Positions 2,407 through 21,346 of a stretch of 46,031 nt of DNA are shown one piece after another. Location of the stretch: positions 1 through 46,031 of IMG/VR virus record IMGVR_UViG_3300042553_000650; one strand, given 5' to 3'. Made by a program: the position numbers and the translations under genes. Below the pieces are notes generated by a model. That model was given only the letters and a program-made list of their open reading frames with translations, ran no database searches and had not been told where the DNA came from. Position 1 is the first letter of the stretch; each line of letters starts with the position of its first letter. The stretch comes from a virus.

Positions 2407-2467
2407 TACTAGAGCTTACTAGAGGCTACTATTCTCTACTGGTAGTAAGGTAAAAGTTTTTATCTTA
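2407..2467. repeat. 10-bp-phased TACT repeat followed by AT-rich inverted repeat
   Basis: TACT recurs at 2407, 2417, 2427 and 2437, exactly one helical turn apart, and the first two units share TACTAGAG. A 9-bp inverted repeat follows (2446-2454 with 2459-2467, 4-nt loop, one G-T pair). It sits just past the last firm leftward gene. It may be a terminator-like or protein-binding element, but no clear U-tract is present. Confidence 0.45.
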
Positions 2468-2510
2468 GGGGTCATTTCTTATATCTGCCTTTTATTTTGG
2501 GGCTTGGTAT

Positions 2511-3983: not shown

Positions 3984-3984
3984 T

Positions 3985-5582: not shown

Positions 5583-5584
5583 CC

Positions 5585-6523
5585 TCAACTTCCTTGCCCT
5601 CTGATTAGATAGTCAGAAACATCTTCAGGTCCTGAATCCCATTCTTCCACGTCTTCGCAAGCCTGTCCAGTCAAAGCTTTAGTTTTTTGCAGACGTTCCA
5701 AAACCCGTTTAAAAGGCTCCCCGATCAGGTAGCAGCTTTGAATAAGCTCTTTTAGATCGTCAATCGAAAACCCTTTAGTGCTCTTAGCCCAAAGCTCCAG
5801 ATCAGCAAAATCAGCGCCCAGCTTATGAGCGATGTATTGGCGGCGTGCTCTAATGGATGGCAGCTTTACCTCCACCGTTTGGCTAAAACGACCAGGACGC
5901 AAGAATCGTGGGGGAATCTTTTGAATGTAGTTAGTCGTACCCAAAACAATCGTGTTAGGTCTTTGCATCTGACCATCGAGAAACACCAGAAGTTGGTGCT
6001 CACTACGTAGAATCATCTCGTCCACTTCTTCCAGAATCAAAACCAGCAACGTATTAGGGTTGGTGTCTTGAAACCAGTTCAAGATAACTTCAAGCAGCAT
6101 CACGCCATCCACGTTTCCGGTGGCCGTCTTTCGATCCACGAATAAGCATATAGCTTCATTCTGAGCAACCGCTGCCTCGGCAATGCGGTTTACCAGAATC
6201 GTCTTTCCCGCACCTGGAACTCCGTACATCAACAAGTTGCGCTTGTACAAATACCCCATGCGTTCGTACCCACCACGAACCTCAGGAAGCAAGAACCGAC
6301 TCATGGTGCGTAGCACTTCTTTATACTCCTCGCTGTCCAGATCCAAGATAGCGTCGTGCTTAAGCTCCGCCTCATACAGGTATGCCCTTTTCGTCTGATG
6401 ACAAAAATCTAGCCTGTATACTCCTGTTTGTACGGCGTCTTGTTTATTTTGCGCCTTAGGCAAAACAAAATACTTATCATTCTCTCTTGAGTAGCCGTCA
6501 AAGCTAATCTCCCTCTTCCTCAT
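5585..6523 (-). CDS. AAA+ ATPase
   Basis: The 312-residue protein has a Walker A motif GVPGAGKT (101-108), a Walker B LLVLILEE (159-166; the usual Asp is Glu), sensor-1 GTTN (195-198) and the FLRPGRF arginine-finger segment (207-213) typical of classical AAA proteins such as FtsH, Bcs1 and proteasomal ATPases. The N-terminal 80 residues are unlike known adaptors, and no protease domain is fused. It probably forms a hexamer that remodels a protein or nucleoprotein complex. GGAGGG 6 bases upstream is a strong ribosome-binding site. The neighbouring phosphoesterase may be its partner. Confidence 0.85.
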   Translation of the reverse strand: MRKREISFDGYSRENDKYFVLPKAQNKQDAVQTGVYRLDFCHQTKRAYLYEAELKHDAILDLDSEEYKEVLRTMSRFLLPEVRGGYERMGYLYKRNLLMYGVPGAGKTILVNRIAEAAVAQNEAICLFVDRKTATGNVDGVMLLEVILNWFQDTNPNTLLVLILEEVDEMILRSEHQLLVFLDGQMQRPNTIVLGTTNYIQKIPPRFLRPGRFSQTVEVKLPSIRARRQYIAHKLGADFADLELWAKSTKGFSIDDLKELIQSCYLIGEPFKRVLERLQKTKALTGQACEDVEEWDSGPEDVSDYLIRGQGS

Positions 6524-6571
6524 GTTATCCCTCCGATATCAATCTAAATACAATACTAAATTAATCAAGCA

Positions 6572-6802
6572 TTAAAGTCCAGTCCATCTTCGGATCTGGG
6601 CTCGCTCGTATTGACTAATCGCTGCCATGTAGTAGCTATCCCAATCTGCGTACTTTACTAAGTTAGCCCTTATTAAAAGCTTAAACATGGTTTCGGCTTG
6701 ATTTAGCACCAGCTCGTCGGGATTTGGCACGTTTGGCCACCCTAGACTTTTTAGGTGATTTTCCATTACGGCCTTTATTTGTGCTTTTGTTTGTGGTGTC
6801 AC
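6572..6802 (-). CDS. Hypothetical protein, 76 residues
   Basis: The gene starts at a GTG with AAAGGGA 6 bases upstream, well inside the ribbon-helix-helix gene, giving a 122-base out-of-frame overlap. The protein is helical with aromatic residues late in the chain (YADWDSYYMAAISQYERAQ). No family is recognised. The good ribosome-binding site inside another gene supports it being real. Confidence 0.55.
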   Translation of the reverse strand: MTPQTKAQIKAVMENHLKSLGWPNVPNPDELVLNQAETMFKLLIRANLVKYADWDSYYMAAISQYERAQIRRWTGL

Positions 6803-6959
6803 TGCTATCCCTTTCTGCTTTAATTAGTTCGGCAGCAAGGATGACGTTAACAACCGTGTTTTGGTCGGTACCCGCAAGGCTTGCCACTTGTTTTAAAAAG
6901 TTGACGGTTTCAAGGTCAAGCATTACTTGAACCTCGACGTATTTTGATTTCTTTTTCAT
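6681..6959 (-). CDS. Ribbon-helix-helix-like DNA-binding protein with basic tail
   Basis: Residues 5-45 look like a ribbon-helix-helix (CopG/Arc-type) domain: a beta strand YVEVQVMLD, helix LETVNFLKQVASLAG, turn, and helix QNTVVNVILAAEL. The remaining half is extremely rich in Lys, Arg and Ser and overlaps the next gene out of frame. Such proteins dimerise and bind palindromic operators, so this is a candidate binder of the palindromes near 2 kb and 17.2 kb. That link is only inference. The stop of the upstream gene overlaps the start (ATGA). Confidence 0.55.
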   Translation of the reverse strand: MKKKSKYVEVQVMLDLETVNFLKQVASLAGTDQNTVVNVILAAELIKAERDSSDTTNKSTNKGRNGKSPKKSRVAKRAKSRRAGAKSSRNHV

Positions 6960-7255
6960 GGTATCCCCACGAGCATCTTTGCTAGCTTGGCGCTGCGCTC
7001 GGCAAATTCACCTTTGCGGCGAACTCCGGTGAGATTTCCGAAGTAGCGGACGATCTCGCAGTTGCAAACATTACGTGAATTTAGGTAAATGGTGTTAAAA
7101 CCTTTGGGTAGCTCGTCTAAATAGTTCAAAGTCTGAAACAGCTTTTGCCATTGTTCGTTGGGAAGCCAGATCTCAATGTTGTCATCTTGAGTTTCGGCGT
7201 AGTGCTGTTCCATGAGTCTGAACATTTCATCTTTAATGTGTTGACCGCTCTTCAT
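6956..7255 (-). CDS. Hypothetical protein, 99 residues
   Basis: No family is recognised. The protein is soluble and mixed alpha/beta, with a hydrophilic helical start and a short C-terminal basic helix. Its start overlaps the SET gene by 23 bases and its end overlaps the ribbon-helix-helix gene by four, so it is embedded in the leftward operon. Confidence 0.6.
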   Translation of the reverse strand: MKSGQHIKDEMFRLMEQHYAETQDDNIEIWLPNEQWQKLFQTLNYLDELPKGFNTIYLNSRNVCNCEIVRYFGNLTGVRRKGEFAERSAKLAKMLVGIP

Positions 7256-7604
7256 ATTCCTCCGCTTCCGTAGGGTCGTAGCCGTAGTTGATCTTTAGCT
7301 CTTGACCCTTTCTTATATCTTTTATAGCCCATACCTTGACAAAGGGCAAGCCTTTTTTAAAAAAGGTTTCAAAGTCACAGTTCGGCGTATCAGAATGATT
7401 TAAAAGAGACGTTATCCCTAAAGCGATGGCGCTAGGCGTGTCTTCGGAATCAACTTGAAAGTCATAACGACAAACCGTAGGGCCTTTACGATCATCTGGT
7501 TTAAGTAACATAAGATGATCACAAAGAATCAGCTCGCCCTCTTTAATCGACTTATCGGTATAAACTCCTCTGCCGTATTTATTCTTCTTTACCTTCAAGG
7601 ACAT
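7233..7604 (-). CDS. SET-domain protein (probable protein lysine methyltransferase)
   Basis: The 123-residue protein is a minimal SET domain: GRGVYTDKSIKEGELI (11-26), the SAM-binding and catalytic NHSDTPN (69-75), a strand VKVWAIKDIRKGQEL and the pseudoknot-forming INYGYD (105-110). SET enzymes transfer methyl groups from S-adenosylmethionine to lysine side chains. The post-SET cysteines are absent, as in many short bacterial and viral forms. In a phage it may modify a host ribosomal, transcription or DNA-binding protein. The gene overlaps both neighbours. Confidence 0.85.
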   Translation of the reverse strand: MSLKVKKNKYGRGVYTDKSIKEGELILCDHLMLLKPDDRKGPTVCRYDFQVDSEDTPSAIALGITSLLNHSDTPNCDFETFFKKGLPFVKVWAIKDIRKGQELKINYGYDPTEAEEYEERSTH

Positions 7605-7845
7605 CGTTTAAACTCTTTGTCATAGTACGAACTGCTTTTAGCACTTCGTTGTTTACTAACTGTTTAAAAGTCTCTTCGGATTCGACATAATAAGGAACAA
7701 GATGAACAACTCGGTTGTCGATCCGTTTTTCTTGCAAGGTGATACCGCAGTTGATCAAAAGTTGTCCAAATCTTTGATCAGGCATGCGTTCGTTAGCTTC
7801 GGTCAAAAGCTTCAAAATCTCCCGATTAAGTTCTTGCCTAGTCAC
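7579..7845 (-). CDS. Hypothetical protein, 88 residues
   Basis: The segment MPDQRFGQLLINCGI resembles a motif seen in small phage and bacterial proteins of unknown function. A helical C-terminus follows. There is no membrane segment. It overlaps the SET gene by 26 bases and the upstream gene by four, so the three are probably made together. Confidence 0.6.
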   Translation of the reverse strand: MTRQELNREILKLLTEANERMPDQRFGQLLINCGITLQEKRIDNRVVHLVPYYVESEETFKQLVNNEVLKAVRTMTKSLNDVLEGKEE

Positions 7846-8042
7846 GACCTACCTACCAATCTTGCTGTTGAGCTAATTTGAAGTACGCCCCCGTTTTCAT
7901 CACAAACCCAAAAACGCTTGTTAGGCTCGAGCATTAGCTTAGCCCAGTTTACAGCGTCTTCGACGCTAGTGAAGTAGTTGTCACCGTGAGCTTCTTTAGC
8001 CTTTTCAAAGCTTTCTCCCATGATAACTACGTACAGTTTCAT
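7842..8042 (-). CDS. Hypothetical protein, 66 residues
   Basis: This short alpha/beta protein begins with a beta strand MKLYVVIMG, then a helix, and ends in a strand FWVCDENGGVLQIS. I recognise no family. It is coupled by 4-base overlaps at both ends. Confidence 0.55.
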   Translation of the reverse strand: MKLYVVIMGESFEKAKEAHGDNYFTSVEDAVNWAKLMLEPNKRFWVCDENGGVLQISSTARLVGRS

Positions 8043-8455
8043 AGCTTCCCCGTGTAACAGCCCATCACCCGCATCTGACCAGAGTCACGATAAATTTTGA
8101 CGTTGAGTGAGTAGTGAACTTGTGTTTCCTTATCTTCGCCTTCTAGGATCAACCAAATAGCATCCTGCATATTCTCGTACATAACGTGAGATCGAATCTT
8201 CATCTCCACCGGCTTCATGCGAGAAAGTGCCAACTGCCTGCCAAGCCGCTTGTTAAACTGATCATCAGGATGTACCAACGCTGACCCAATTTGTACCGTG
8301 ATCTTAGGAATGGAGAGCACTGACCTCGTGTACTGCTTTCGCATCTCCTGCAGAATCTCCAAAACATGCGGCACTTCCAAAGCTACCGTTGATCTGCGCC
8401 CTGGGTTATACGCCTCAAACTCATCTCTTTCCATGTTGTGCTTAAAGATAGTCAT
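8039..8455 (-). CDS. Hypothetical protein, 138 residues
   Basis: The C-terminal half is predicted beta-rich (HYSLNVKIYRDSGQMRVMGCY), while the N-terminal half is helical and basic. No known motif is visible. A second ATG (residue 8) is an alternative start. Overlaps of 4 and 14 bases with the neighbours place it in the operon. Confidence 0.55.
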   Translation of the reverse strand: MTIFKHNMERDEFEAYNPGRRSTVALEVPHVLEILQEMRKQYTRSVLSIPKITVQIGSALVHPDDQFNKRLGRQLALSRMKPVEMKIRSHVMYENMQDAIWLILEGEDKETQVHYSLNVKIYRDSGQMRVMGCYTGKL

Positions 8456-8672
8456 AACTTCTCGCCTTCAAAGTAACTAGCATGACGTCGCCATTTACAG
8501 GATCGGAGTCTAAGGTCCAACCCTTATCAAAAGCAACCTCTTTATTAGGATGGGCTTTTTCAAAGATGAACTTAATTACCGATTTAATATCAAATAAATC
8601 GTAAGCATCTTTGATTTCCATCGCTTCCTTATGGGTAATTTTAAGTTTTATCTCTTCTATAAGCTCACGCAT
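8442..8672 (-). CDS. Hypothetical protein, 76 residues
   Basis: The protein is small and charged, with an alternating Glu/Lys helix at the N-terminus and a beta strand near the end (GDVMLVTLKARSY). No family is recognised. It overlaps the genes on both sides by 8-14 bases. Confidence 0.55.
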   Translation of the reverse strand: MRELIEEIKLKITHKEAMEIKDAYDLFDIKSVIKFIFEKAHPNKEVAFDKGWTLDSDPVNGDVMLVTLKARSYDYL

Positions 8673-8874
8673 TTTTAAACGCCTTTTTTAAAGACATCAA
8701 AGTATTAAGCCAATAATTCGAGTGGGGATTAGGAAGAACCGGATTGCCATCTTTATCTTTAAAAGATGCGACGGTAAGAGGTTCAATAATTCGCCTCGCC
8801 CCTTCGTATCCGTGTTTTTTCAACATCCCTTGCGCCATCTCGTTACAATTCATTTTTTTAGTCGATGTAGCCAT
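8665..8874 (-). CDS. Hypothetical protein, 69 residues
   Basis: The protein is soluble and basic. The stretch FKDKDGNPVLPNPHSNYWLNTLMSLKKAF is the most distinctive part in outline (a DG turn, then a proline loop, then a helix). No family is recognised. Its start overlaps the upstream gene by 25 bases, with a tandem of two possible ATG codons. Confidence 0.5.
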   Translation of the reverse strand: MATSTKKMNCNEMAQGMLKKHGYEGARRIIEPLTVASFKDKDGNPVLPNPHSNYWLNTLMSLKKAFKNA

Positions 8875-9080
8875 TTTTCCTCCGTAATTGTTACAAATCT
8901 ACCTAGGTCTGCATTTGGAATTCTAATCTGAGTCTTTTCGGACGCCATATTATTTAGGTCAAACACTAAAGCTGAGCCGCTGACTTCTACATAAACGTTT
9001 ATGTTTTGGCCTGCTGCGTTTTTATCTAAATAATCAAGAACGCTTTTTAAATCTTCGTGTTTAACTTTCACGTGACTCAC
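8850..9080 (-). CDS. Hypothetical protein, 76 residues
   Basis: This is a small protein with alternating hydrophobic residues in the middle (NVYVEVSGSALVFDLN), which suggests a beta sheet between two helices. No known family is recognised. Four-base overlap with the upstream HNH-like gene couples its translation. Confidence 0.55.
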   Translation of the reverse strand: MSHVKVKHEDLKSVLDYLDKNAAGQNINVYVEVSGSALVFDLNNMASEKTQIRIPNADLGRFVTITEEKWLHRLKK

Positions 9081-9571
9081 GCCGTTACCCCAAGCTCTTT
9101 CTTGATCACTCGGCTGATGTGTGAGCGAGAAATCTTACGTCGAAATCTACGAGCGATCTTAGCTACGGAGTTTCCAGCACAAAATAAAGCAACCATGCGA
9201 TCAATCTGGTTACGAGTCAAACGTTTTGTTTTTTCACGCTTAACTTGACCTGGATTACGGCCTCGCAGATTGTTGTTTCGATCATCCAAGCTAATACCGT
9301 TTTCTCGTTGAACTACGGTGGCGCCTAGATACTTAGAAGCAAAAATCGGCGAATAACCCAAAGTCAAAAGTCGCTGAGCGTAAACTACACGACCTACCAC
9401 CAGTTTAGTACCTTTGTAGGTAATAACTTGATAACCGTGACGCTCTGACCCCAACGTTTGGTACTTGCCGTCAGAACCTTTCTTCTTGATGACTCCGTTC
9501 TTTTGAACTTTATAGCGTGAGTCTAGAGCTAGTTGAACTGCTAGTTTATTGTTTTTTGTTGATGTGATCAT
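9077..9571 (-). CDS. HNH-fold-like protein with C-terminal helix-turn-helix
   Basis: The first 110 residues resemble the phage NUMOD4/HNH endonuclease layout: a YKVQKNGVIKKK strand pair, GYQVITYKG, a helix, then ISLDDRNNNLRG in place of the usual HNH asparagine region. The catalytic histidine is not evident, so nuclease activity is doubtful. The C-terminus (about 118-160) is a resolvase-type helix-turn-helix: LTRNQIDRMVALFCAGNSV, then SRSHISRVIKKELG. It may be a homing-nuclease relic turned DNA-binding protein. AAAGGAGAAGAT before the ATG is a strong ribosome-binding site. Confidence 0.65.
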   Translation of the reverse strand: MITSTKNNKLAVQLALDSRYKVQKNGVIKKKGSDGKYQTLGSERHGYQVITYKGTKLVVGRVVYAQRLLTLGYSPIFASKYLGATVVQRENGISLDDRNNNLRGRNPGQVKREKTKRLTRNQIDRMVALFCAGNSVAKIARRFRRKISRSHISRVIKKELGVTA

Positions 9572-9585
9572 ATCTTCTCCTTTGG

Positions 9586-9846
9586 TTAGTCTTCTGTTTC
9601 GTATCTTTTTTTAGTATTTATAAAATTAAAACTTTTATCGTCTGGTAACTGTGATTTTAGCTTTTCGTCTCTTTGCTGAATGTACTCAGCCTCCTTAGTA
9701 AAAATGTTGAAACTTCTAAGCTTATAAACCTCTACTTTAAAAACACCGTTAATGTCGGGTTTTTGAGCAACCTTCCTGTAGTATTTAGGAGGAGCTTCAA
9801 AATTCCACTCTAGGGTATTTTCGCCGATGCCTTTAACTTTAATCAT
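9586..9846 (-). CDS. Hypothetical protein, 86 residues
   Basis: No family is recognised. The first half looks like a small beta fold (MIKVKGIGENTLEWNF), and the second half is charged and helical. No membrane segment is visible. It sits between a small membrane protein gene and the HNH-like gene with short gaps. Confidence 0.55.
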   Translation of the reverse strand: MIKVKGIGENTLEWNFEAPPKYYRKVAQKPDINGVFKVEVYKLRSFNIFTKEAEYIQQRDEKLKSQLPDDKSFNFINTKKRYETED

Positions 9847-9848
9847 AA

Positions 9849-10055
9849 TTACTCCTGTTCTTGTTCTAACCTTTTTGGTATGCGAATGTCAAACTCTTTT
9901 ATGAAAAAATTTTCAGGTGTCTCAATTTGCAACAACACGTCTGCCATAGCGCCTTTATAACCCGTATCGTACCCTCGATGCCATGCCTCTAGTATTAGGT
10001 TCAAAATTATCAATATGAGAATCGTTACCCAAAAAGCTTTCCTAAAAAGTTCCAC
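9849..10055 (-). CDS. Small single-span membrane protein
   Basis: This 68-residue protein has one hydrophobic helix (about residues 8-23, FWVTILILIILNLILE) preceded by basic residues and followed by a soluble acidic tail, so an N-in orientation is likely. It starts with GTG, and AGGA lies 8 bases upstream. Function is unknown. Small inner-membrane proteins of this size in phage early regions include superinfection and lysis-timing factors, but no motif supports either here. Confidence 0.6.
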   Translation of the reverse strand: MELFRKAFWVTILILIILNLILEAWHRGYDTGYKGAMADVLLQIETPENFFIKEFDIRIPKRLEQEQE

Positions 10056-10072
10056 GGTGATATCCTAGGTTC

Positions 10073-10405
10073 ATGGTTTTAACTCCTTTAATAGTTTCAG
10101 TTTGTTTGCAGTTAGGAAGCCAGTATGATGCGGCTTGCAACACTGCTCTAGAACAAGCAGCCGTACAAAGCGGGATTGCAGGCAAGGCCCAATACCTAGC
10201 AAAAGACTTGGAACACAGAACTATTAGATATTTAGATCCTTCAGAAGAAGCTGAAATAATATTTGCAACTTTTGGATTTACAGCTAAAGCTCTAATCGAC
10301 CGTCGAGCTACGCTTGCGATACCGAACCCTTTCTTAAAAAGGTCTTCGGTAAGTTTAGGTATAGGTCCTGAAAATCTACAGCTTTCATTTCGCATGGACT
10401 TTTAA
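10073..10405 (+). CDS. Rightward 110-residue hypothetical protein, possibly exported
   Basis: It is read opposite to its neighbours. The reading is favoured because its codon usage matches the phage's other genes and its composition is natural, whereas the opposing leftward frame (10042-10395) is rich in Cys, Ser and Trp as antisense shadows often are. The first 15 residues are hydrophobic (MVLTPLIVSVCLQLG) and could be a signal segment, though no basic residue precedes them. The C-terminus alternates hydrophobic residues and ends in Phe. The ribosome-binding site is weak. No family is recognised. Confidence 0.5.
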   Translation: MVLTPLIVSVCLQLGSQYDAACNTALEQAAVQSGIAGKAQYLAKDLEHRTIRYLDPSEEAEIIFATFGFTAKALIDRRATLAIPNPFLKRSSVSLGIGPENLQLSFRMDF

Positions 10406-10767
10406 TCTTCTTTCAGCCATTTTTTACATTCAGCTAATACTTCGGCAAGGTATTGCTTGTTATTTAGTTTCCTATTTCTGCCTGAGGGATGCGGTAATCT
10501 AAAGTATCGAGCGACGCCATGATTTACCAAAGCTTGAGAAGCTTCAACTCCAAGAGCGATGATTTTGTACCGCTCTAGAGAAGCTTTTACTAAAACCTTG
10601 CTAAAATCTGGCGCAACCCTATTGATCATCACTATTTCCGCTTCTTCTTCTAAGATCTCTCGAAGCCAACTTTGAATGGTTCTAAAAGACTTAGTTCCCA
10701 CAAAAGCTATTGCGGGGTCCGTGTTTTTGCTAGAAGGCTTGTCACCAACTATCAAAAGCTTAAGCAT
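10402..10767 (-). CDS. Uracil-DNA-glycosylase-superfamily-like protein
   Basis: The 121-residue protein has the general pattern of the uracil-DNA glycosylase fold: LLIVGDKPSS near the start in the place of the GxxPG catalytic loop, a central IIALGVEASQALV strand-helix, and LPHPSGRNR (about 92-100), matching the family's DNA-minor-groove HPSxxN motif. It is shorter than active enzymes and the first motif lacks the expected acidic water-activating residue pattern. It may be an inactive binder or a distinct nucleotide-binding variant. The ATG at 10767 overlaps the upstream gene by 8 bases. Confidence 0.65.
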   Translation of the reverse strand: MLKLLIVGDKPSSKNTDPAIAFVGTKSFRTIQSWLREILEEEAEIVMINRVAPDFSKVLVKASLERYKIIALGVEASQALVNHGVARYFRLPHPSGRNRKLNNKQYLAEVLAECKKWLKED

Positions 10768-11017
10768 CAAAGCCGCCGTCTTTTCTGCCGTCTTCTTCCA
10801 AAGACTCGTTCATTCTTACGTTTTTAATATTTTCTAGCAGGTTGTTGTGAAGCTCCAGTAAAACTTCCAAAGCCCCCGTCAGGGCGTACTTTAGTTTGTC
10901 ATCAAGGGTGTCATCTTTAAGCTTTTCCCTAAGAGCATCAACATCCCCTGACAAACGCTTTAACAAGGTCCCTGCCTGAATCATATCTGTGGGTTTTACC
11001 AATACACTGTTACTCAT
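10760..11017 (-). CDS. Hypothetical helical protein, 85 residues
   Basis: The sequence is almost entirely predicted helix, with heptad-like leucines (GTLLKRLSGDVDALREKLKD, then LEVLLELHNNLLENI), which suggests a small coiled-coil oligomer. No family is recognised. It overlaps the deformylase gene by 4 bases and the glycosylase-like gene by 8. Confidence 0.6.
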   Translation of the reverse strand: MSNSVLVKPTDMIQAGTLLKRLSGDVDALREKLKDDTLDDKLKYALTGALEVLLELHNNLLENIKNVRMNESLEEDGRKDGGFDA

Positions 11018-11490
11018 GCTTTTCTCCTCTTTCCTACATGGTTATAATCTGTCATCACTATACCGTTTAAATGATCCAACTCATGCTGCACTACTCTAGC
11101 CTCTAAGCCGTCAAACTGATTCTCGTGGACGATGTTGTTCTCATCTCTATAACGTACTAAAATAGTAGACTTTCTTTCTACCAGTTTAACTAGCTTAGGA
11201 AAGCTTAAGCACCCCTCATGTGAGGTCTCCTTGTTAGGAAGCCAGTTTGTTACGAAAGGGTTAAACATTATCGTAGGGCCGGAGCCGGTGTCGAAGACTA
11301 ACAAGCGTATCTTAAGGCCTACCTGTGGAGCAGACAGTCCGATGCCCTTGCTGGCATACATAGTACGTAGCATCTTCTGCGCTACCGCTCGGTGCTCATC
11401 CGTAACCCAATGCACTTCTTCCGTAAGCTTTTCTTTTAAAGCCGGATTAGGGTAATAAACCAGCTTATAGGTGGAGTCATCATTTTCCAT
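11014..11490 (-). CDS. def: Peptide deformylase
   Basis: All three peptide deformylase motifs are intact: GLSAPQVG (51-58), EGCLSFP (92-98, metal ligand C94) and HELDH (136-140, two His ligands and the catalytic Glu). The enzyme removes the formyl group from the N-terminal methionine of new proteins. At 158 residues it has the core domain but a short C-terminal tail, as in other phage-encoded deformylases. It may keep phage proteins processed during high translation load. The gene overlaps both neighbours within the leftward operon. Confidence 0.95.
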   Translation of the reverse strand: MENDDSTYKLVYYPNPALKEKLTEEVHWVTDEHRAVAQKMLRTMYASKGIGLSAPQVGLKIRLLVFDTGSGPTIMFNPFVTNWLPNKETSHEGCLSFPKLVKLVERKSTILVRYRDENNIVHENQFDGLEARVVQHELDHLNGIVMTDYNHVGKRRKA

Positions 11491-12046
11491 TTCGCATCAA
11501 CTCCAAAAGATGTTCTAATACCAAAGTAGTCATCATCACGTCTCCATCTGCGGAATGAGCACTAGAAGAGTCGATGTTGAAGTATTCCGCAATAGATGAA
11601 AGACTGCCACTTACCGACGAAGGTAGCAATCCGGCTGCGATGCACGCCCGAGCGATGGTGCCGGTATCTAAGGTTCGGTAAGATACGAACTTGTTCCACG
11701 TGTTTTTGCTCATCAAAAGTTCTTGAATTTTCATGATGTCAAATACTACGTTGTGCCCAACTGGAATAAGTTTATCGCTGCCAAGCACGCTGTTACCGTT
11801 TAAAAAGTTATAGAGCTTAGTTCCTGCTTCTCGGTAAGTAATTGCTCTTTGATCGTGGCTTTTAAGCTCGATACCATTAACTCGTAAGGCTTCCGCAGTT
11901 ACGATGTACTTACCATCATCAGGCTTCATCTCAAGTAGCAGATTATCGCACTCTTCAAACGTGTCGTCCAAAACTGAAAAGTAGGCAGTTAGTAATGAAG
12001 TTCCTTCAAAGCCTCCGGTCTCGGTATCGAGTACTAGATATTTCAT
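11480..12046 (-). CDS. DEDDh 3'-5' exonuclease (DnaQ/RNase T-like)
   Basis: The 188-residue protein carries the DEDDh active site: DTE (7-9), the HN-x3-D block (H98-D103) and H-x4-D (H164-D169). Such enzymes use two metal ions to remove nucleotides from 3' ends. The length fits a stand-alone proofreading subunit or an oligoribonuclease/RNase T-type enzyme; the sequence does not decide between DNA and RNA. AGAAAGG precedes the ATG. It lies between deformylase and recombinase genes. Confidence 0.85.
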   Translation of the reverse strand: MKYLVLDTETGGFEGTSLLTAYFSVLDDTFEECDNLLLEMKPDDGKYIVTAEALRVNGIELKSHDQRAITYREAGTKLYNFLNGNSVLGSDKLIPVGHNVVFDIMKIQELLMSKNTWNKFVSYRTLDTGTIARACIAAGLLPSSVSGSLSSIAEYFNIDSSSAHSADGDVMMTTLVLEHLLELMRNGK

Positions 12047-12057
12047 AAAAACCTTTC

Positions 12058-12891
12058 TTAAAAATTCAGCTTCATTGCTGAAGAGTTTTTTATACCATCT
12101 CGTTTCTTATCATAAGATCCGATAGTTGTATTTACACTACTATGACCCGCAAAGTCAGCCACGTTACGAGGAGACTCGCCGTTCTCAAGAAGTTGAGAGA
12201 TGGCAGTGGCCCTGCAAGAATGTGGCGATACCGGACGAGTAACACCTATGATCTTGGCGTACTTTTTCACGATGTTATAGATCGTGTTAACGCTGATCTG
12301 CAAAAGTGGTGCAGCGTTTTTAAACTTTAAGAGTGGCGAAGTGGCGATCTGAGGTAAGAGAAGCTCTTGAAGCTTGGGGTGCGCAGGCACCATACGAAAC
12401 TTACCGCCTTTTCCCCTTACTCTGATTACAAGCTGACCGTCCATCTCCGAGATGTCGTTGAACAACAATCCCGTGATCTCGCTGCGCCGCATTCCTGCGT
12501 AAAACAAAAGACCTAGAACTACAAGATCTCGTTGACGCTCCTGCGATTTAGGTTGTTTTTCCGCAGCTTTAAACATATTACGCACTTCAGCATCTGTAAA
12601 AGCTTGCGTAGGTTCTGCAACTGAAACCTTAGGAGCTTTTACTCCAGCAAAAGGATCGATGTTGAGTTTCCCCTGTCCTCGAAGATAATCACAAAAACTG
12701 CGAACACTAGACATCTTACGAGCAATACTTGAAGGTGACAGTCCTTGCTTCACAAGAGTATCTCGAAACAGTATTACGCTTGAACGAGACAGTTCTCCAC
12801 CAGCAATAATACGAAACTGCTCAAGATCCGTTTTATAAGCTCTTACCGTTTGCTCAGAATTTTGTCCTCCGAGGAACTCGTAAAAATCCAT
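12058..12891 (-). CDS. Tyrosine recombinase/integrase
   Basis: The 277-residue protein has a SAM-like N-terminal core-binding domain (1-85) and a catalytic domain with R135 (GMRRSEITGL), K161 (RGKGGK), H224-x-x-R227 (SPHSCRA), H250 (AGHSS) and the nucleophile Y260 (SYDKK). Size and layout match XerC/XerD-type enzymes. It could integrate the phage, resolve genome multimers or act at a host dif site. It is embedded in the leftward operon without an adjacent excisionase, repressor or obvious attachment site, so lysogeny cannot be concluded. Confidence 0.9.
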   Translation of the reverse strand: MDFYEFLGGQNSEQTVRAYKTDLEQFRIIAGGELSRSSVILFRDTLVKQGLSPSSIARKMSSVRSFCDYLRGQGKLNIDPFAGVKAPKVSVAEPTQAFTDAEVRNMFKAAEKQPKSQERQRDLVVLGLLFYAGMRRSEITGLLFNDISEMDGQLVIRVRGKGGKFRMVPAHPKLQELLLPQIATSPLLKFKNAAPLLQISVNTIYNIVKKYAKIIGVTRPVSPHSCRATAISQLLENGESPRNVADFAGHSSVNTTIGSYDKKRDGIKNSSAMKLNF

Positions 12892-12897
12892 AAAGCC

Positions 12898-13194
12898 TCA
12901 TTTCAAGTGTTCAATGGAAATAATCAAATCGGGAGTATCTGATTTTTCATCCTCTTCTAAAATTACTTGATAACCTGCTTCTGCCAGCGCAGGCTCAACT
13001 AAAGGAAGGCCCCAGTAATGTTGTTCTTCATTCATGGGAACGTAGATGCGTACTACGCCGTTTTCGATCATTTCGTTGATCTTTTCAGCACACATTTGCA
13101 TCAAACCGTTAGCAACTCGTTTTTTACGAGCCAAAGAGTTTTTCTTTGCTTTAGTGATAGCTTCTGAGGCCTTAATTACTTTTTTCAGCGTCAT
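12898..13194 (-). CDS. Hypothetical protein, 98 residues
   Basis: No family is recognised. The N-terminal 35 residues are basic and helical, and the rest is a likely alpha/beta fold containing VRIYVPMNEEQHYWGLPLVE. It ends 6 bases before the recombinase start, and a Glu/Asp-rich tail follows. An accessory role to the recombinase is possible but unsupported. Confidence 0.55.
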   Translation of the reverse strand: MTLKKVIKASEAITKAKKNSLARKKRVANGLMQMCAEKINEMIENGVVRIYVPMNEEQHYWGLPLVEPALAEAGYQVILEEDEKSDTPDLIISIEHLK

Positions 13195-13408
13195 TTGCTA
13201 ATTCCTTTCTTTTACGAAACTCGTTTAAATCGATAACATCTGCGATAGGCTGAGCGACGATTTTATAAAATCCTTCTTCATCTGGGTTAGTTGCTAGCAC
13301 TCCAATACAACCACATTCTGCACACTCATCTTGATGAACTGTGCCATACGAACTCGTATACGGTACCGCTACCCATTTATGACTGCAAGTTCTCCATTTA
13401 GCTTCCAT
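13172..13408 (-). CDS. Small putative zinc-binding protein
   Basis: The 78-residue protein contains C8-x-H10 and, further on, C29-x2-C32-x-C34 (DECAECGCIG), a pattern that could bind one zinc ion. The ATG at 13408 is chosen over an upstream start because AGAGGAGG lies 5 bases before it, the best ribosome-binding site in this part of the operon. Function is unknown; small zinc ribbons often bind nucleic acid or proteins. Confidence 0.6.
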   Translation of the reverse strand: MEAKWRTCSHKWVAVPYTSSYGTVHQDECAECGCIGVLATNPDEEGFYKIVAQPIADVIDLNEFRKRKELANDAEKSN

Positions 13409-13445
13409 GTTGCCTCCTCTAACCATCATGGCGCCGTGCCGAGTT

Positions 13446-13652
13446 TTAGTCAAGAATTATTTTTAGCAAATTCCTGGTTCTAAGCCAAGCTTGTGTAGCT
13501 TGAACGTAACAATATGTCCTAAATTGAGAATCATCCATTTTTAAGTTGCGAGGATCGTGATTATTGTAATAATCAATCGCATAAGAGCGTATTTGCTCCA
13601 GATCTGTTTTAGTCATAATTACTTTTGGATCGTTGTTACTGGGTTGGTCCAC
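13446..13652 (-). CDS. Hypothetical protein, 68 residues
   Basis: The frame begins at GTG with AAAGGAAG upstream, inside the end of the HNH gene. An ATG 12 codons later is an alternative. The protein is helical and rich in Tyr, Asn and Asp (RSYAIDYYNNHDPRNLK). No family is recognised. Confidence 0.5.
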   Translation of the reverse strand: MDQPSNNDPKVIMTKTDLEQIRSYAIDYYNNHDPRNLKMDDSQFRTYCYVQATQAWLRTRNLLKIILD

Positions 13653-14200
13653 AAATGCTTCCTTTGAAATAGTTTAGTAATATAAGTTTTAAATTCGTCT
13701 AAAGATAAATCCAACTTCATAGTATTACAGGTTTTACAACAAGGAACGCAGTTTTCAATCGTATACCCTAACCGGTTATTAACCCTATCTAATCCATGAA
13801 TAGGTACAGGTATTCCTGGTGTATTTGTTTTTAAAATTGGAGGTGCCGCACAATAAAAACAAGGCTGCATAGCTAAAGTTTGAAATTGGGACAACGAAAG
13901 CGAGAATTTTATACTTCTATACGAAGCTGTTCTTTTGTAGTTGCCGTAAAAATAGTTAAAAAAAGATTTTATAGTTCTTTGGTTTTTGCCTTTTTCAATC
14001 GCTTGCTTACGCCGAACACAACCGCAACTTCTTTTTCCTGGCTTTCTTAAATTTCCGGCATCAATTTTTTTATAATTACCACAAGAGCATTCACATAAAA
14101 ATCTAGACCTTTTAGGTTTTGTCCGTAACCTAGGTAATCGTTTTATTACAGTAAGGTGCCCAAAAACATCGCCTATTTTAATTGTAGTTTTTTTTGCCAC
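13619..14200 (-). CDS. HNH homing endonuclease
   Basis: The 193-residue protein has an N-terminal zinc-binding module with cysteines at CECSCGN (36-42) and SCGC (58-61), typical of phage-borne HNH proteins that begin with GHLTVIKRL. A C-terminal HNH domain follows: CFYC (114-117), H135-GLDRVNN, N150 and CKTCNTMK (155-162). These free-standing endonucleases spread by cutting related genomes lacking the gene. It overlaps the ThyX gene by 28 bases, so insertion has created or used the overlap. Confidence 0.88.
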   Translation of the reverse strand: MAKKTTIKIGDVFGHLTVIKRLPRLRTKPKRSRFLCECSCGNYKKIDAGNLRKPGKRSCGCVRRKQAIEKGKNQRTIKSFFNYFYGNYKRTASYRSIKFSLSLSQFQTLAMQPCFYCAAPPILKTNTPGIPVPIHGLDRVNNRLGYTIENCVPCCKTCNTMKLDLSLDEFKTYITKLFQRKHLWTNPVTTIQK

Positions 14201-14853
14201 TCTAACGCCTCCGCAACTTGTGGTAGTTCATTACAAAACACTTTGGCAATTTCTTTTGCAATCTCTGCGTGTTCTAGTTGAGTGCCTGGAGTAAAAGCCC
14301 TAAGCTGCAGATAGTGAATCCAACTGCGAATAGAGCCGTTCATGTACAGTTTAGTACTAGTCGAAAGTGGTAGTAAGAATCTTGCTTGCTCTTTAGCAAT
14401 TCCTTTATCTAAGGCTTGTTGATAAGCAAACTCAGCTTCCATTTGAATATGCTTCTGCATAAGCTCAAACCACTGTTTAGCCTCTTCACTCATGTCGTCA
14501 ATACTATTTTGACGATTTTTAGGATCTTGAGATCGAGCTTGATAAGTCTCAAAACTTTGAACTTCGGCATATCTTTGACTAAACTCTTGAAAACTAAAAG
14601 ATCGATGCCGTAAGATCTGTGCTGCGATAGCTCTTGAAGTTTCAATCTCAAAAACCATGTTTGCCATCTCAAAGATAGAAACATGCCCGTGTTTTAAACA
14701 ATAGTCTAAAAGCTTTGTGTTTGTAGAAGTTTGATTTGCCGGATTTGAGACTCGAGCGCAATACATTATAAGATTTTGCGGACCAATAAGTCCCAACTGA
14801 TTTTTAAGATCCTCGTCGCAAATAACAGTTTTAGCGATTAGTCTGACTTTCAT
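14173..14853 (-). CDS. thyX: Flavin-dependent thymidylate synthase
   Basis: The diagnostic ThyX motif RHRSFSFQEFSQRY (82-95) is intact, with ARVSNPANQ earlier and LPLSTSTKLYMNGSIRSW later forming the dUMP and FAD sites. The enzyme makes dTMP from dUMP using methylene-tetrahydrofolate and reduced FAD, and acts as a homotetramer. At 226 residues it is normal length. It supplies thymidine for phage DNA synthesis. The HNH gene just downstream is a common association, because homing nucleases target conserved nucleotide-metabolism genes. Confidence 0.95.
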   Translation of the reverse strand: MKVRLIAKTVICDEDLKNQLGLIGPQNLIMYCARVSNPANQTSTNTKLLDYCLKHGHVSIFEMANMVFEIETSRAIAAQILRHRSFSFQEFSQRYAEVQSFETYQARSQDPKNRQNSIDDMSEEAKQWFELMQKHIQMEAEFAYQQALDKGIAKEQARFLLPLSTSTKLYMNGSIRSWIHYLQLRAFTPGTQLEHAEIAKEIAKVFCNELPQVAEALEWQKKLQLK

Positions 14854-15034
14854 CTACAACCTCGTATTGTTCTTTTAATAGTTCTACCGCCATAGCATAA
14901 GCGCCGTTTCTGAAGTGCCAATGTTGACTGCTTAGATGCGACTCTTCTCGCAGGTTATGCTCTGTTCTAGTCAACTTTTCTGCTTTATCCATACTGATGC
15001 GAATGAACTCATCTTTAGTAATCTTCTTTTTCAT
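14831..15034 (-). CDS. Hypothetical protein, 67 residues
   Basis: This small helical, charged protein has a distinctive central patch HLSSQHWHFRNGAYAMAVELL. No family is recognised. It overlaps the ThyX start by 23 bases and should be co-translated with it. Confidence 0.55.
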   Translation of the reverse strand: MKKKITKDEFIRISMDKAEKLTRTEHNLREESHLSSQHWHFRNGAYAMAVELLKEQYEVVDESQTNR

Positions 15035-15040
15035 AAATCC

Positions 15041-15610
15041 TCAATCCCACCAGCACTGGTGATACTTAGCCATTATGTTAAAAAGCCAGCGAACATCACG
15101 CTCACGCTGCGCATCATCCATGCGATAGGCAACCAAGGCTTCTGTGCGCTCCTGTTCTTTCTCCTCGGGCGTAACCGCTTTAGGTCTTACAATCTCTAAA
15201 CGAGAACCTCCGTTAGATATTTCTTGACCATTTTCGTCAGTTTTGTGAAAAACCCATTCACTCTCGCCCCATTTTTGATCATGAAGACCTGCAAAGTAAT
15301 GATAGTCCCGCCTGTTAATTTTTTTAAGCAGCTTGATACAAATGCGAATGCTTTGATCAGTAGCTTTATCAGGCACGTGATGCCCGTTTTTAATCTCCTT
15401 TTGCATCCGTTTGAGCTTGAATTCAATCAAGTCCAAAAGATAGCTATAATCCCAATCGTAAGAGTTCCAACCGTGAACTGCAAAAGCAAGAGCACGTTTC
15501 ACTTTACGAAGAAAAGCCCTAAGAGAGCTAGTAAGGTCTGAGATCTTTCTTCTTAGCCAGCTTTCATCCTTACTCCAAAAATCGTCCGACACCGCTTTAC
15601 TGTTGAGCAT
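15041..15610 (-). CDS. Conserved phage protein of unknown function, 189 residues
   Basis: The protein resembles, by general pattern, phage proteins with an AFAVHGWNSYDWDYSYLLDL region (42-61) followed by a long basic helix and a conserved aromatic YHYFAGLHD segment. Their function is not known. It is soluble and helical. A run of Glu and Arg near the C-terminus precedes a final WLFNIMAKYHQCWWD. The gene overlaps the upstream gene by 14 bases. Confidence 0.65.
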   Translation of the reverse strand: MLNSKAVSDDFWSKDESWLRRKISDLTSSLRAFLRKVKRALAFAVHGWNSYDWDYSYLLDLIEFKLKRMQKEIKNGHHVPDKATDQSIRICIKLLKKINRRDYHYFAGLHDQKWGESEWVFHKTDENGQEISNGGSRLEIVRPKAVTPEEKEQERTEALVAYRMDDAQRERDVRWLFNIMAKYHQCWWD

Positions 15611-15863
15611 TTAAAACCTCCTGAGATTTCATATCAATAAACAGGCCGTAAACTCTGCGGTACATTTTTTTATTCATAGAGTTAAGAACTATCGCATCAT
15701 ACTGCGCCAGTACGTAAGGTACTTTTTGTTCCGTGAATCTTTTAATCCAAAACTCAGCTTCTTTTTTACTGGTCATGGGCTCAGTCCACAAATTGTATTT
15801 TTTTAGTTTAATTTTTTTAAGTGCGTCAGTCTCACTTTGAGAAACGATACTTAAGTTCATCAT
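15597..15863 (-). CDS. Hypothetical protein, 88 residues
   Basis: No family is recognised. The protein is basic, with a lysine-rich segment (LKKIKLKKYNLW) and a likely beta-alpha core VPYVLAQYDAIVL. It overlaps the aminotransferase gene by 4 bases and follows it in the operon. Confidence 0.55.
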   Translation of the reverse strand: MMNLSIVSQSETDALKKIKLKKYNLWTEPMTSKKEAEFWIKRFTEQKVPYVLAQYDAIVLNSMNKKMYRRVYGLFIDMKSQEVLNAQQ

Positions 15864-16771
15864 CGGTTTAACCCTCTAGTAGTTTTAACAAACTCATATT
15901 TAAGCATCCGAGTAACCTTTCCGGCTTCGCCGTCAGCTATGTTACGACCATCCACCACAGTAATAGGCATAACTTCCATGTAGGTTCCTGTCAAGAACAT
16001 TTCATCAGCCGTAAAAATATCTGGACGAGTTAGTCGCCGCTCAATTACCTGTAAACCTAGTTCTTGAGCTTTCTGCGCAATCCATTGTCGAGTTAGGCCT
16101 GAAAGGATAGAGCCCGTTTGAGGCGGAGTAAATATAACACCTTGTTTTACGATAAAAATATTAGCAACACTTGCTTCTACAACATAACCATCGTTATCGC
16201 AAAACAAAAGCTCATCAACTCCTTCAAACTCAGTTTTACAGTTATGAAGAACTGCATAATTTGCAGTTGTTTTTGCTTGCATGAAGTATTGTGGGTAGCC
16301 TCGGGGTGTTGAAGATATTCGAGCTTTGAGAGCGACTTTTTCACTAGATTTAAGTGGAAAGCAATAAATATCTACATTGATTTTATTTGATTGGGCTCTA
16401 ACTGATTCGGCATCTTGTGTAGCATACACAATAGGCCTAAGATAAAGATCTCCACCGCCAGCAGCTTCGACGACTTCTTGACAAGCTACAACAAGTTCCT
16501 CGACGGTATACGGAATCTCCATGTTTAGGATTTTTGCTGAGTTAAAAAGTCTTAAAATGTGTGCTCGCAAAAGCCAAACGTGTGTAGTACCGTCTTCTTT
16601 CAGATATGCTCTGATGCCTTCCCAAACAGCCGGAGCGCCGTAATGAAGTACAAAGTTGAAACTATCTATTGTAGTTTTTTTAGCAGAGATCACGCCATTA
16701 GCCCAAACTCGTAAAGATGAGTTTGGCTTGCTCCTGGTGTTTTGTGATCTAGTTTTAAATCCCGCTCCCAT
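15860..16771 (-). CDS. ilvE: Class IV PLP aminotransferase (branched-chain type)
   Basis: The 303-residue protein has BCAT-type motifs: VWEGIRAY (49-56), YLRPIVY (110-116), the PLP lysine K167 in QAKTTANY, E199 in VVEASVANIF, SGLTR (224-228) and TGTYMEVMPI (261-270). These belong to fold-type IV aminotransferases that move amino groups between glutamate and branched-chain keto acids; D-amino-acid transferases are the main alternative. The ATG at 16771 follows GAGGAGGGTT, a very strong site. It is the first gene of the leftward operon, behind a ~410-nt leader. Such an enzyme is unusual in a phage. Confidence 0.88.
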   Translation of the reverse strand: MGAGFKTRSQNTRSKPNSSLRVWANGVISAKKTTIDSFNFVLHYGAPAVWEGIRAYLKEDGTTHVWLLRAHILRLFNSAKILNMEIPYTVEELVVACQEVVEAAGGGDLYLRPIVYATQDAESVRAQSNKINVDIYCFPLKSSEKVALKARISSTPRGYPQYFMQAKTTANYAVLHNCKTEFEGVDELLFCDNDGYVVEASVANIFIVKQGVIFTPPQTGSILSGLTRQWIAQKAQELGLQVIERRLTRPDIFTADEMFLTGTYMEVMPITVVDGRNIADGEAGKVTRMLKYEFVKTTRGLNR

Positions 16772-16983
16772 AACCCTCCTCAAAAATAAGCGTGCGACGG
16801 TGGTTTTACCCACATGTCGGCTTTACCCCGTAGCCGAACCTATCACGTGTACTCACTCAACCCCGTACAATGCCGAGGAGGTTTTACGAGCTTTCTGGTC
16901 AGTGCGTGTCTCCAGTGGCTCGTGAATTTACGGCTCTTTAAGCATCCCGATAGTTCTCGATAAGCACACCACAGCTTTTCACG

Positions 16984-19336: not shown

Positions 19337-20794
19337 ATGCAAAACTATAACTTCGTAAATTTTGGCGAAGGTTTCGGTTCAACGACTGCAAATGACATCG
19401 ACGAACTGAACAAAGCCCTAGAAGCCGGTGCTGGTTACGCAGGCGCCCCTACCGCCCTTACTGGTGGTGGAGCACTTCAAGTTGAGTCTTTGGACGCTTC
19501 TTTGAAGTCTGTTACCTATGACATGAAGCACCTTAAGTTGTGGCCTATGATCGATAAAGATCAGGCTTTCAACACAATCGAAGAGTACAACCGAACTGAT
19601 GCTTACGGTGATCAAGGCCGTGGCTTCATTAAGGAAGGCGCTCTTCCCCGCTCTGAGGATGCGAGCTACACTCGTCAAATCCAAAGGGTACGTTTCATCG
19701 GCGTTACTCGTGAGTTGACTCACGTTTACACGTTGGTACGCAATGCTCACGGCGATGCAATCGCTCGTGAAATCCGTAACGGAACTATGCGTATCCTCGA
19801 AATCGTCGAGCGAGCACTTGTTTGGGGCCGTTCACACTACGCTTCGGCATCCGGTGTGTTTGATGGCGCTGACGCTGCTATCCTTGATGACGACACTGCT
19901 TGGGAAGGTTTGGATAAGCAGATCCGCAAAGGTAATACTGATGCTTCTGCAAAAGCTAAGGCTTTCACTGGGTACGGCGTTGAAGAAGACGTAATTCGAG
20001 ACATCCGTGGTGATGTTATGGATTCTGATCTTCTCGAAGATGCTGCTCGAGTTGTCGGTGAAAATTTCGGTATCCCGTCTGTAATGTTGTTGGATACTAA
20101 AGCGCACTCTGACCTTGGACGTCAGTTCTTCCCTAAAGAGCGAGTTAACCCAATGGGTGTTGCTCAAGGTAAAGCTGGTTTCGTTCTTCAGTCTTTTGTA
20201 GCTGCTGCTGGCGAATTCCAATTGATGTCAAGCGTGTTTATGCGACCTAAGCGTACTCCTGCTGCTCCTTTGGCTGGCATTGCTGCCCCTGCTGCTCCTA
20301 CTCTGTCTGCTGCCGTTGATGCACTTTCTAAATTTACTGCTGCTGACGCAGGTAACTACAGCTACCGTGTAAGTGCTATTACCGAAGCTGGTGAAGGCGC
20401 AGTTTCTCCTGTTTCCGCTGCTCAGGCAGTTGTTGCTGGCGAAAGAATCAACGTAGCCATCGTAGGTGTTGCTGGAGCGATTGCATACGCAGTTTACCGC
20501 TCTCCTAAAGGCTCTTTGACCGGACATGAGTTTATTGGTTATATTGCTCCTGCAGCAGTTGGCGGAAACGCTACTATGCGAGATCTGAACCATAAGCTCC
20601 CTGGTTTGTCACAAGCTTACTTGTTGACTAAAGATGCTGAGGTTCTGCGATTTAAACAATTGGCTCCTCTTATGAAGATGGACCTTGCAGTTGTTGCTAC
20701 TGCTTACCGCTGGATGCAACTCTTGTACGGAACTCCGATTGTATATGCACCTCGTAAGAATTTCTTGATCGAGAACATCGGTCGAGCATCGTAA
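19337..20794 (+). CDS. Major capsid protein with inserted Ig/FN3-like domain
   Basis: The 485-residue protein sits directly after protease and scaffold genes, has strong codon bias and a good AAGGAGAA ribosome-binding site, all fitting the most abundant virion protein. Residues 50-300 look like a phage capsid core (VTRELTHVYTLVRN, then VERALVWGRSHYA). Residues about 317-420 are different: a proline/alanine linker, then TAADAGNYSYRVSAITEAGE and INVAIVGVAGAIAYAVYRS, typical of an immunoglobulin or fibronectin-III-like surface domain. The chain then returns to capsid-like sequence. A terminator follows 29 bases after the stop. Confidence 0.85.
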   Translation: MQNYNFVNFGEGFGSTTANDIDELNKALEAGAGYAGAPTALTGGGALQVESLDASLKSVTYDMKHLKLWPMIDKDQAFNTIEEYNRTDAYGDQGRGFIKEGALPRSEDASYTRQIQRVRFIGVTRELTHVYTLVRNAHGDAIAREIRNGTMRILEIVERALVWGRSHYASASGVFDGADAAILDDDTAWEGLDKQIRKGNTDASAKAKAFTGYGVEEDVIRDIRGDVMDSDLLEDAARVVGENFGIPSVMLLDTKAHSDLGRQFFPKERVNPMGVAQGKAGFVLQSFVAAAGEFQLMSSVFMRPKRTPAAPLAGIAAPAAPTLSAAVDALSKFTAADAGNYSYRVSAITEAGEGAVSPVSAAQAVVAGERINVAIVGVAGAIAYAVYRSPKGSLTGHEFIGYIAPAAVGGNATMRDLNHKLPGLSQAYLLTKDAEVLRFKQLAPLMKMDLAVVATAYRWMQLLYGTPIVYAPRKNFLIENIGRAS

Positions 20795-20823
20795 ATAACT
20801 AAGATTGTTAGTTAAACTAATAG

Positions 20824-20857
20824 GCCAAGGGCGAAAATCCTTGGCTTATTTTTTTTT
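20824..20857 (+). terminator. Rho-independent terminator after the capsid gene
   Basis: GCCAAGG (20824-20830) pairs perfectly with CCTTGGC (20839-20845) around an 8-nt loop, and a long T-run follows. It ends the head-gene transcript 30 bases after the capsid stop and isolates the following RNA candidate. Confidence 0.9.
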
Positions 20858-20876: not shown

Positions 20877-20905
20877 TTGAATAAATCGTCTTTTTTTGGT
20901 ATTCT
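20877..20905 (+). promoter_or_regulatory. Promoter of the intergenic RNA candidate
   Basis: TTGAAT (20877-20882) and TATTCT (20900-20905) are separated by 17 bp and lie just after the capsid terminator. The predicted start is near 20912, where the 5' hairpin begins. A promoter between two terminators with no gene between implies an RNA product. Confidence 0.6.
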
Positions 20906-20911
20906 TAGATA

Positions 20912-20994
20912 AGGGTCGCAATGACTCTGTGATCTCATCCCCCTCCTGATCACTTCCTCCTTGGCCCCTAAGGTTCTCTTAGGGGTCTTTTTTT
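20912..20994 (+). ncRNA. Predicted small RNA with CCUCCU loops
   Basis: The ~83-nt RNA would fold into three hairpins. The first is AGGGTC/GACTCT (20912-20917 with 20923-20928). The second is GTGATC/GATCAC (20929-20934 with 20948-20953) with a 13-nt loop containing CCCCCUCCU. The third is the terminator stem at 20965-20985. Between the second and third is a single-stranded UUCCUCCUUGG. Exposed C-rich CCUCC tracts are how known regulatory RNAs seize Shine-Dalgarno sequences. The GAUCAC...CUCCUU order also resembles the 3' end of 16S rRNA. No coding frame of any length fits. Its targets are not known. Confidence 0.6.
20965..20994 (+). terminator. Rho-independent terminator of the small RNA
   Basis: CCCCTAAG (20965-20972) pairs perfectly with CTTAGGGG (20978-20985) around a 5-nt loop, followed by TCTTTTTTT. 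It is a second strong terminator only 140 bases after the capsid one, which is unnecessary unless a transcript starts between them. Confidence 0.9.
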
Positions 20995-21004: not shown

Positions 21005-21033
21005 TTGTCTTTATGTTAAACTTGAGGTAGTCT
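21005..21033 (+). promoter_or_regulatory. Candidate promoter for the adhesin-tail block
   Basis: TTGTCT (21005-21010) and TAGTCT (21028-21033) are separated by 17 bp. The start would fall at or next to the ATG at 21041, so the first mRNA may be leaderless; an overlapping TGTAAT (21033-21038) is an alternative. Some promoter is needed here because two terminators precede the gene. Confidence 0.45.
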
Positions 21034-21040
21034 GTAATCT

Positions 21041-21346
21041 ATGAAAGAGTTCAAAACGGATAATTTAGCACTCTGTCCTTTTTTAGAGATGCACGGACTG
21101 AAGTTTTTGCGCACAGAAGTGTCGCTAGGAAAGCATGATAAACCTACGGTTTTATTTGTTTTTCAAGATAATTTAGGACAAGGTCGAGATCTTCAATTAG
21201 ACTTTATGCGGTCAGATTTTAAAAGATACAGAGATTTATTGTTCTTTTTTAGAAATGAAATTGAAAAAGTAAACCGAAGTTTGACTCAAAGAAGAACTTC
21301 TAATTTAGAAGTTGAACTACGAGACGAGGAAGAAAATGGCGAGTAA
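21041..21346 (+). CDS. DUF5659-like protein, 101 residues
   Basis: The layout FKTDNLALCPFLEMHGLKFL, a lysine loop, TVLFVFQD and DLQLDFMRSDFKRY resembles the DUF5659 family of small phage and bacterial proteins, whose role is unknown. The C-terminus is a basic then acidic helix. There is no good Shine-Dalgarno: GAGG lies 13 bases upstream. It is the first gene after the double terminator. Confidence 0.6.
   Translation: MKEFKTDNLALCPFLEMHGLKFLRTEVSLGKHDKPTVLFVFQDNLGQGRDLQLDFMRSDFKRYRDLLFFFRNEIEKVNRSLTQRRTSNLEVELRDEEENGE

Follow-up and report, generated by a model that had tools for sequence, protein, structure and literature searches.

A conserved small RNA gene with exposed C-rich, anti-Shine–Dalgarno-like tracts in phages with SPO1-like head genes

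Main finding

A gene for a small RNA of about 84 nt lies, close to certainly, behind the capsid gene of the virus record analysed here (46,031 nucleotides over its whole length, referred to as the window). Comparison with related phages establishes that its fold and its accessible C-rich tracts are retained. Anti-Shine–Dalgarno (anti-SD) pairing would be the most economical function, and a stand-alone, trans-acting sRNA that pairs with GGAGG-type SD sites and blocks translation was given a probability of roughly 0.6; transcription, base-pairing with SD sequences, repression and the mRNA targets are what we infer from the sequences.

Locus and neighbouring genes

The window (a 46-kb virus record) derives from a phage whose head and tail genes are SPO1-like; PHROG matches to a head protease, a major head protein and a tail sheath were obtained. 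Structural genes occupy the plus strand (17297–45944); a block of small genes on the minus strand (71–16813), called early from the gene order, has those for an aminotransferase, ThyX, an integrase-type recombinase and an AAA ATPase among them. The gene of the SPO1-like major capsid protein (19337–20794, plus strand; PHROG 752 major head protein, E 2.5e-72; ca. 31–34% identity to SPO1-like Bacillus phages by tblastn) is followed by the intrinsic terminator of the capsid transcript (20819–20850, plus strand), which insulates the RNA gene and is found at the same place in relatives. The gap of 246 nt between the capsid gene and the gene of a 101-aa protein (21041–21346, plus strand) contains the candidate RNA. 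The 101-aa protein, the conserved downstream neighbour (43–92% identity in relatives on viral contigs), gave no PHROG match, a Pfam match below the cut-off only (DUF5659) and no match in cultured phages. Its gene has a separate promoter, TTGTCT-N17-TAGTCT (21005–21041, plus strand; from sequence, conserved in relatives), the start codon stands 7 nt after the −10 box, and the mRNA is probably leaderless in the clade of the window; in L026 the 101-aa gene has a longer leader and an SD-like site.

In the host search, no relatives of the capsid protein were found in 84,980 genomes and the aminotransferase gave a single match (33%) in an unclassified MAG; blastn of the RNA region against cultured phages returned no match. 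The RNA family is known from a single metagenomic lineage that has no cultured members.

The position directly behind the capsid terminator, ahead of the RNA or the downstream gene, has taken up differing ORFs again and again (L005, L007, L023, L028, L034, L035, L039) and has the appearance of a hot spot for insertion. Most of these ORFs are small, with HNH-like motifs judged by eye; that at L034:7552-8160 had no Pfam match, and that of L028 (554 aa) matches Pfam Mom (E 1.8e-7).

Promoter, fold and terminator

All sequence elements that had been predicted earlier (promoter, two terminators, three hairpins, exposed tracts) are present. The RNA is placed at about 20911–20994 (plus strand) by covariation and by covariance-model matches in relatives; its 5' end is taken from the promoter (± 2 nt). 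The sigma-70-type promoter TTGAAT-N17-TATTCT (20877–20905, plus strand) consists of a −35 box TTGAAT (20877–20882), a 17-nt spacer and a −10 box TATTCT (20900–20905). In the window it is below the usual threshold and absent from the consensus promoter scan list, and taken alone it is unremarkable; it carries weight because TTGAAA...TG-T-TATATT is conserved in relatives. It is kept in L002, L003, L004, L006, L018 and L020 as TTGAAA-N16-18-TATATT with an extended −10 TGT; the extended −10 (TGTTATATT) occurs in 6/6 close relatives, with TTGAAA 16–18 nt upstream.

The predicted fold runs hairpin 1, hairpin 2, linker, terminator, all on the plus strand. Hairpin 1 (20912–20928) has the stem AGGGTC/GACTCT and a GCAAT pentaloop (20918–20922); hairpin 2 (20929–20953) has the stem GTGATC/GATCAC and the C-rich loop TCATCCCCCTCCT (20935–20947). 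The single-stranded anti-SD linker TTCCTCCTT (20954–20962) follows, which is conserved and reads TTCCTCCTCCTT in most relatives, and then the RNA's own intrinsic terminator (20963–20994: hairpin 20963–20987 with loop GTTCT, then T7 to 20994). Folding of the region from about 20911 to 20994 thus gave the three hairpins expected, with the loop of hairpin 2 and the adjoining linker unpaired in both the MFE and the centroid structure (probability near 1); MFE −30.7 vs a shuffle mean of −19.1, z = −4.1; with the terminator left out, z = −2.7.

Conservation and covariation

Relatives were gathered by capsid and downstream-gene searches of viral contigs. The same RNA gene, in the same place and with the same fold, was found in six close relatives (L002, L003, L004, L006, L018/L007, L020/L005), flanked by the capsid gene on one side and the same downstream gene on the other; in two of the six an ORF with HNH-like motifs has entered upstream, and directly behind it the RNA and its −10 region are intact. 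A sequence-based alignment of the seven sequences showed double changes at 8 of 22 pairs, 98.7% of cells being paired; none of 500 shuffles reached as high, and sliding the partners by 1–3 columns left 30–53% paired. Double changes were distributed over hairpin 1 (3/6 pairs), hairpin 2 (3/6 pairs; GTAACTGA/TCAGTTAC in L002) and the 10-pair stem of the terminator.

More distant sequences were reached with the covariance model, which matched at the capsid-neighbour position in L025 (37.9 bits, E 5e-5) and L033 (29.5 bits, E 0.002); a sequence-only model scored 14.4 and 13.7 bits, respectively, so that structure adds 16–24 bits. In both, hairpin 1 keeps its GCAAN loop on wholly different, complementary stems. 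With the two added, double changes were counted at 15 of 22 pairs in nine sequences, a count that leans towards the model because the nine-sequence alignment was fitted to it. Across the nine, GCAA of the hairpin 1 loop is invariant on stems replaced with compensation, as is the terminator loop GTTCT; the invariant GCAAN pentaloop suggests a protein or tertiary contact.

At the same site L028 has a terminator-ended RNA with loops CCCCUCC and CCCCC and a CCUCC linker (model score 18.8 bits), an analogue by position and layout, not by score. The RNA is missing at this site in L023, L024, L026, L027 and L029–L032 and so is not essential to the wider group. G009 likewise has none at the capsid site; elsewhere it carries a C-rich three-part RNA (L051, G009:C1:95942-96038; 22.2-bit match), terminator-ended, with loops of CCCCC and a 12-C run. 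A wider search with the 17-mer CTTCCTCCTCCTTGGCC gave 31 contigs; seven inspected matches in non-relatives (≤25 model bits) fall within long reading frames and seem fortuitous. Since chance-like matches reach 25 bits, the RNAs of L028 (18.8) and G009 (22.2) were not counted as homologues on score alone.

The original prediction had also seen the 3' end of 16S rRNA in the succession GATCAC-TTC-CTCCTT. The letters are there; the mimicry did not survive comparison. GATCAC is the 3' arm of the covarying hairpin 2, it is AGTTAC with a compensated partner in L002, it differs again in L025 and L033, and its spacing to CCUCC varies; the likeness is a consequence of the stem and is not itself conserved, because the arm covaries and differs in these three.

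Accessible C-rich tracts

The unpaired stretches (loops and linkers) of ten sequences add up to 241 nt, of which 113 are C and 6 are G, most of the genomes having ca. 21% C; the sequences share ancestry, and the count is to be read with that in mind. The hairpin 2 loops of the seven close sequences are unalignable and differ in length, yet all keep CCCC or CCUCC, the chance of which in a random loop is ca. 2% each. The loop of L006 is free of CCUCC and retains CCCCCC. In the linker the exact anti-SD core CCUCC is kept in 7/7 close sequences. L025 and L033 have short hairpin 2 loops free of C-runs and more weakly C-rich linkers (UCUCCCUACCC, CCUUUCC); for these two alone the C content is not significant. 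The structured sRNA gene with exposed CCUCC/CCCC that had been proposed was to be judged by conservation, and hairpins and C-rich tracts are both conserved.

Such tracts exceed what chance would give: 36 of 47 strong terminators have no accessible C-rich motif in the ca. 75 nt upstream, and the RNA and its orthologues have 7–10 motifs. In 11 related phage records, four transcripts combined a promoter, a terminator and at least two accessible C-rich motifs, and all four are this RNA. A C-rich hairpin in G006 (73401–73507, minus strand) apparently lies in the 3' UTR of a gene of the late block; chance may account for it.

Comparison with known RNAs

No Rfam family matched the RNA at its cut-off. 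The statement that no named RNA has this layout nevertheless proved wrong: the hairpin loops of alpha-r14/NfeR1, 6C/B11 and sX13 likewise expose CCUCCUCCC or C-runs. In the case of NfeR1, the target ntrB is silenced at the point where its translation begins (PMC10746234, PMC3927594). The alpha-r14/NfeR1 RNAs of alpha-proteobacteria ('cuckoo' RNAs; SmelA075, SmelA099) and the phage RNA are alike in their hairpins, freely diverging stems and unpaired CCUCCUCCC anti-SD motifs, and both are encoded by stand-alone intergenic genes. Where alpha-r14 repeats an identical motif on 3–4 hairpins, the phage RNA combines a GCAAN hairpin with one or two C-rich loops and a linker that stays single-stranded; set against at least three hairpins with the loop motif CCUCCUCCC, one variable C-rich loop and the linker UUCCUCC(UCC) were found, and no alpha-r14 family, should the Rfam library include one, was among the matches at gathering threshold or E ≤ 10.

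The 6C/B11 RNA of actinobacteria pairs with G-tracts beside ribosome-binding sites and represses translation (PMC12395582). It shares two C-rich loops and a terminator with the phage RNA; its active C-run lies in the terminator loop, whereas the phage tracts lie in hairpin 2 and the linker. Instead of two loops with ca. ≥6 C, one of them in the terminator, all nine sequences have the terminator loop GTTCT, and the 6C covariance model gave no match at gathering threshold or E ≤ 10. The G009 RNA, with its C-run in the terminator loop, is nearer to 6C and close to it in layout. The sX13 RNA of Xanthomonas has three stems topped by C-rich loops and represses mRNAs that carry G-rich motifs close to their start (PMC3771888); it is bacterial and differs from the phage RNA in sequence, stem arrangement and host.

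The best sub-threshold Rfam match of the RNA was suhB/MmgR (RF00519, alpha-r8; 18.0 bits vs a cut-off of 41, E 0.16), which has a similar succession of hairpin, UUUCCUCCC linker and terminator with a UUCU loop; the match aligns the hairpin 2 loop, linker and terminator and does not cover hairpin 1. In phages P1 and P7, c4 RNA uses its loops to pair in the surroundings of a ribosome-binding site (PMC12197685); c4 is a gene-specific antisense to the antirepressor message of temperate phages, not a generic anti-SD RNA, and gave no Rfam match in the phage RNA. The literature search turned up anti-SD or C-rich-loop RNAs in bacteria and c4-type RNAs in phages, and none of this layout in a virulent phage, an absence that a search of papers cannot prove.

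Two traits of the anti-SD sRNA class are seen in the phage RNA: its own promoter and intrinsic terminator (from sequence and conservation; the transcript is a predicted one), and CCUCC or C-runs unpaired in loops and linkers. Its complementarity to the G-rich start sites through which repression would act is of a generic kind. The RNA is classified as a putative new family, a variant of the known functional class of C-rich-loop anti-SD RNAs.

SD sites and possible targets

Most genes of these phages have SD sites; in the window these were found at 57 of 73 genes (dG ≤ −4.5). Leader SDs include AGAGGAGG at 13172, GGGAGGAA at 2726 and AAGGAG of the capsid gene. As had been pointed out, the aminotransferase gene has AGGAGGG shortly before its start, and these 7 nt can pair without mismatch with CCCUCCU of the hairpin 2 loop. 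The target scan that had been called for found complementarity to phage SDs, but no phage gene clearly exceeded generic SD strength, and the RNA pairs no better with GGAGG sites than the 16S tail does.

A shut-off of early translation was part of the original prediction. In its favour, GGAGG sites are more frequent among the presumed early genes than among the structural genes of the window (21% vs 3%, p 0.02) and of the relatives G001 (14% vs 2%, p 0.03) and G003 (29% vs 8%, p 0.03), but not significantly so in G005 (9% vs 4%); the asymmetry is thus present in 3/4 carriers of the RNA. Because the skew is much the same (15% vs 2%) in G006, where the RNA is missing from this site, the asymmetry lends the switch weak, nonspecific support. 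An early-to-late switch of translation is possible.

Proposed mechanism and competing readings

The trans-acting anti-SD repressor is favoured because alpha-r14/NfeR1, 6C/B11 and sX13 use open CCUCC or C tracts on G-rich start sites, as experiments on those RNAs have demonstrated. Transcription would start at the RNA's host-type promoter and end at the terminator that belongs to it. The anti-SD tracts (CCCUCC, UUCCUCC), kept single-stranded in hairpin 2 and the linker, would then be free to bind mRNAs of the phage, the host or both at ribosome-binding sites of the GGAGG type. Pairing would block binding of the 30S subunit and lower translation, probably with decay of the mRNA as well. Hairpin 1, with its invariant GCAAN pentaloop, is likely to be an element of stability or of protein or tertiary contact.

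It is rather unlikely, though it deserves consideration, that the C-rich tracts serve as a decoy or sponge titrating a host factor (a G-rich regulatory RNA, ribosomal protein S1, a cold-shock or another pyrimidine-binding protein) and leave mRNA ribosome-binding sites alone. Richness in C and U and absence of G are retained, no single exact word is, and complementarity to particular phage genes is not tailored; the pentaloop of hairpin 1 is of a type usual in recognition elements. The exact CCUCC core in every close linker argues for SD pairing instead, as does the action of known RNAs of like layout on mRNA G-tracts.

The order of the hairpins also allows a cis-acting leader or anti-termination signal controlling read-through of the terminator into the genes from 21041, a reading of low probability. 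The RNA begins with two neighbouring hairpins and has a hairpin with a GNRA-like pentaloop, features that call put and boxB elements to mind, and synteny with the downstream gene is kept; against this, the gene at 21041 has its own conserved promoter past the terminator, the conserved unpaired CCUCC linker would have no role, and G009 has a similar C-rich RNA elsewhere.

That the locus is nothing but a terminator pair with a spacer, as its two flanking terminators and the sub-threshold promoter of the window might suggest, appears largely refuted, and very improbable, in view of the covariation in both non-terminator hairpins, the conserved promoter and linker, and the structural homologues in divergent phages. 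Hardly credible is a minus-strand small ORF for which the CCTCC tracts would be SD sites (AAGGAGGAA-GTG, AGGAGGGGG-ATG): GGAGG does precede GTG and ATG codons in the window (longest ORF 35 codons), but the frames have 35, 18, 17, 15 or 14 codons in five phages and are absent in L002 and L018, they share no conserved peptide, and the promoter and the terminator T-tract are on the plus strand. A leader peptide, ATG ACT CTG TGA at hairpin 1 of the window, was rejected; its start codon is missing in several relatives.

Returning to the anti-SD repressor, the probably leaderless message from 21041 would, judging by its sequence, be immune to such an RNA. A wider scheme, in which a general anti-SD RNA made in the late region of a virulent phage from a host-type promoter dampens GGAGG-led early phage and host genes while late genes with weaker AGGA-type sites and the apparently leaderless neighbour escape, is put forward as a speculative extension that is itself doubtful.

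Conclusion

Small RNAs of the anti-SD type are known as bacterial regulators, and gene switching in lytic growth is usually explained by transcription factors and nucleases. The RNA described here supplies a sequence family, along with a structural model, for the search for such RNAs in other phages, and it offers a concrete, easily tested hypothesis on translational control during infection. A conserved anti-SD RNA in large virulent phages, if true, would mean that viruses use the same trick in lytic growth.
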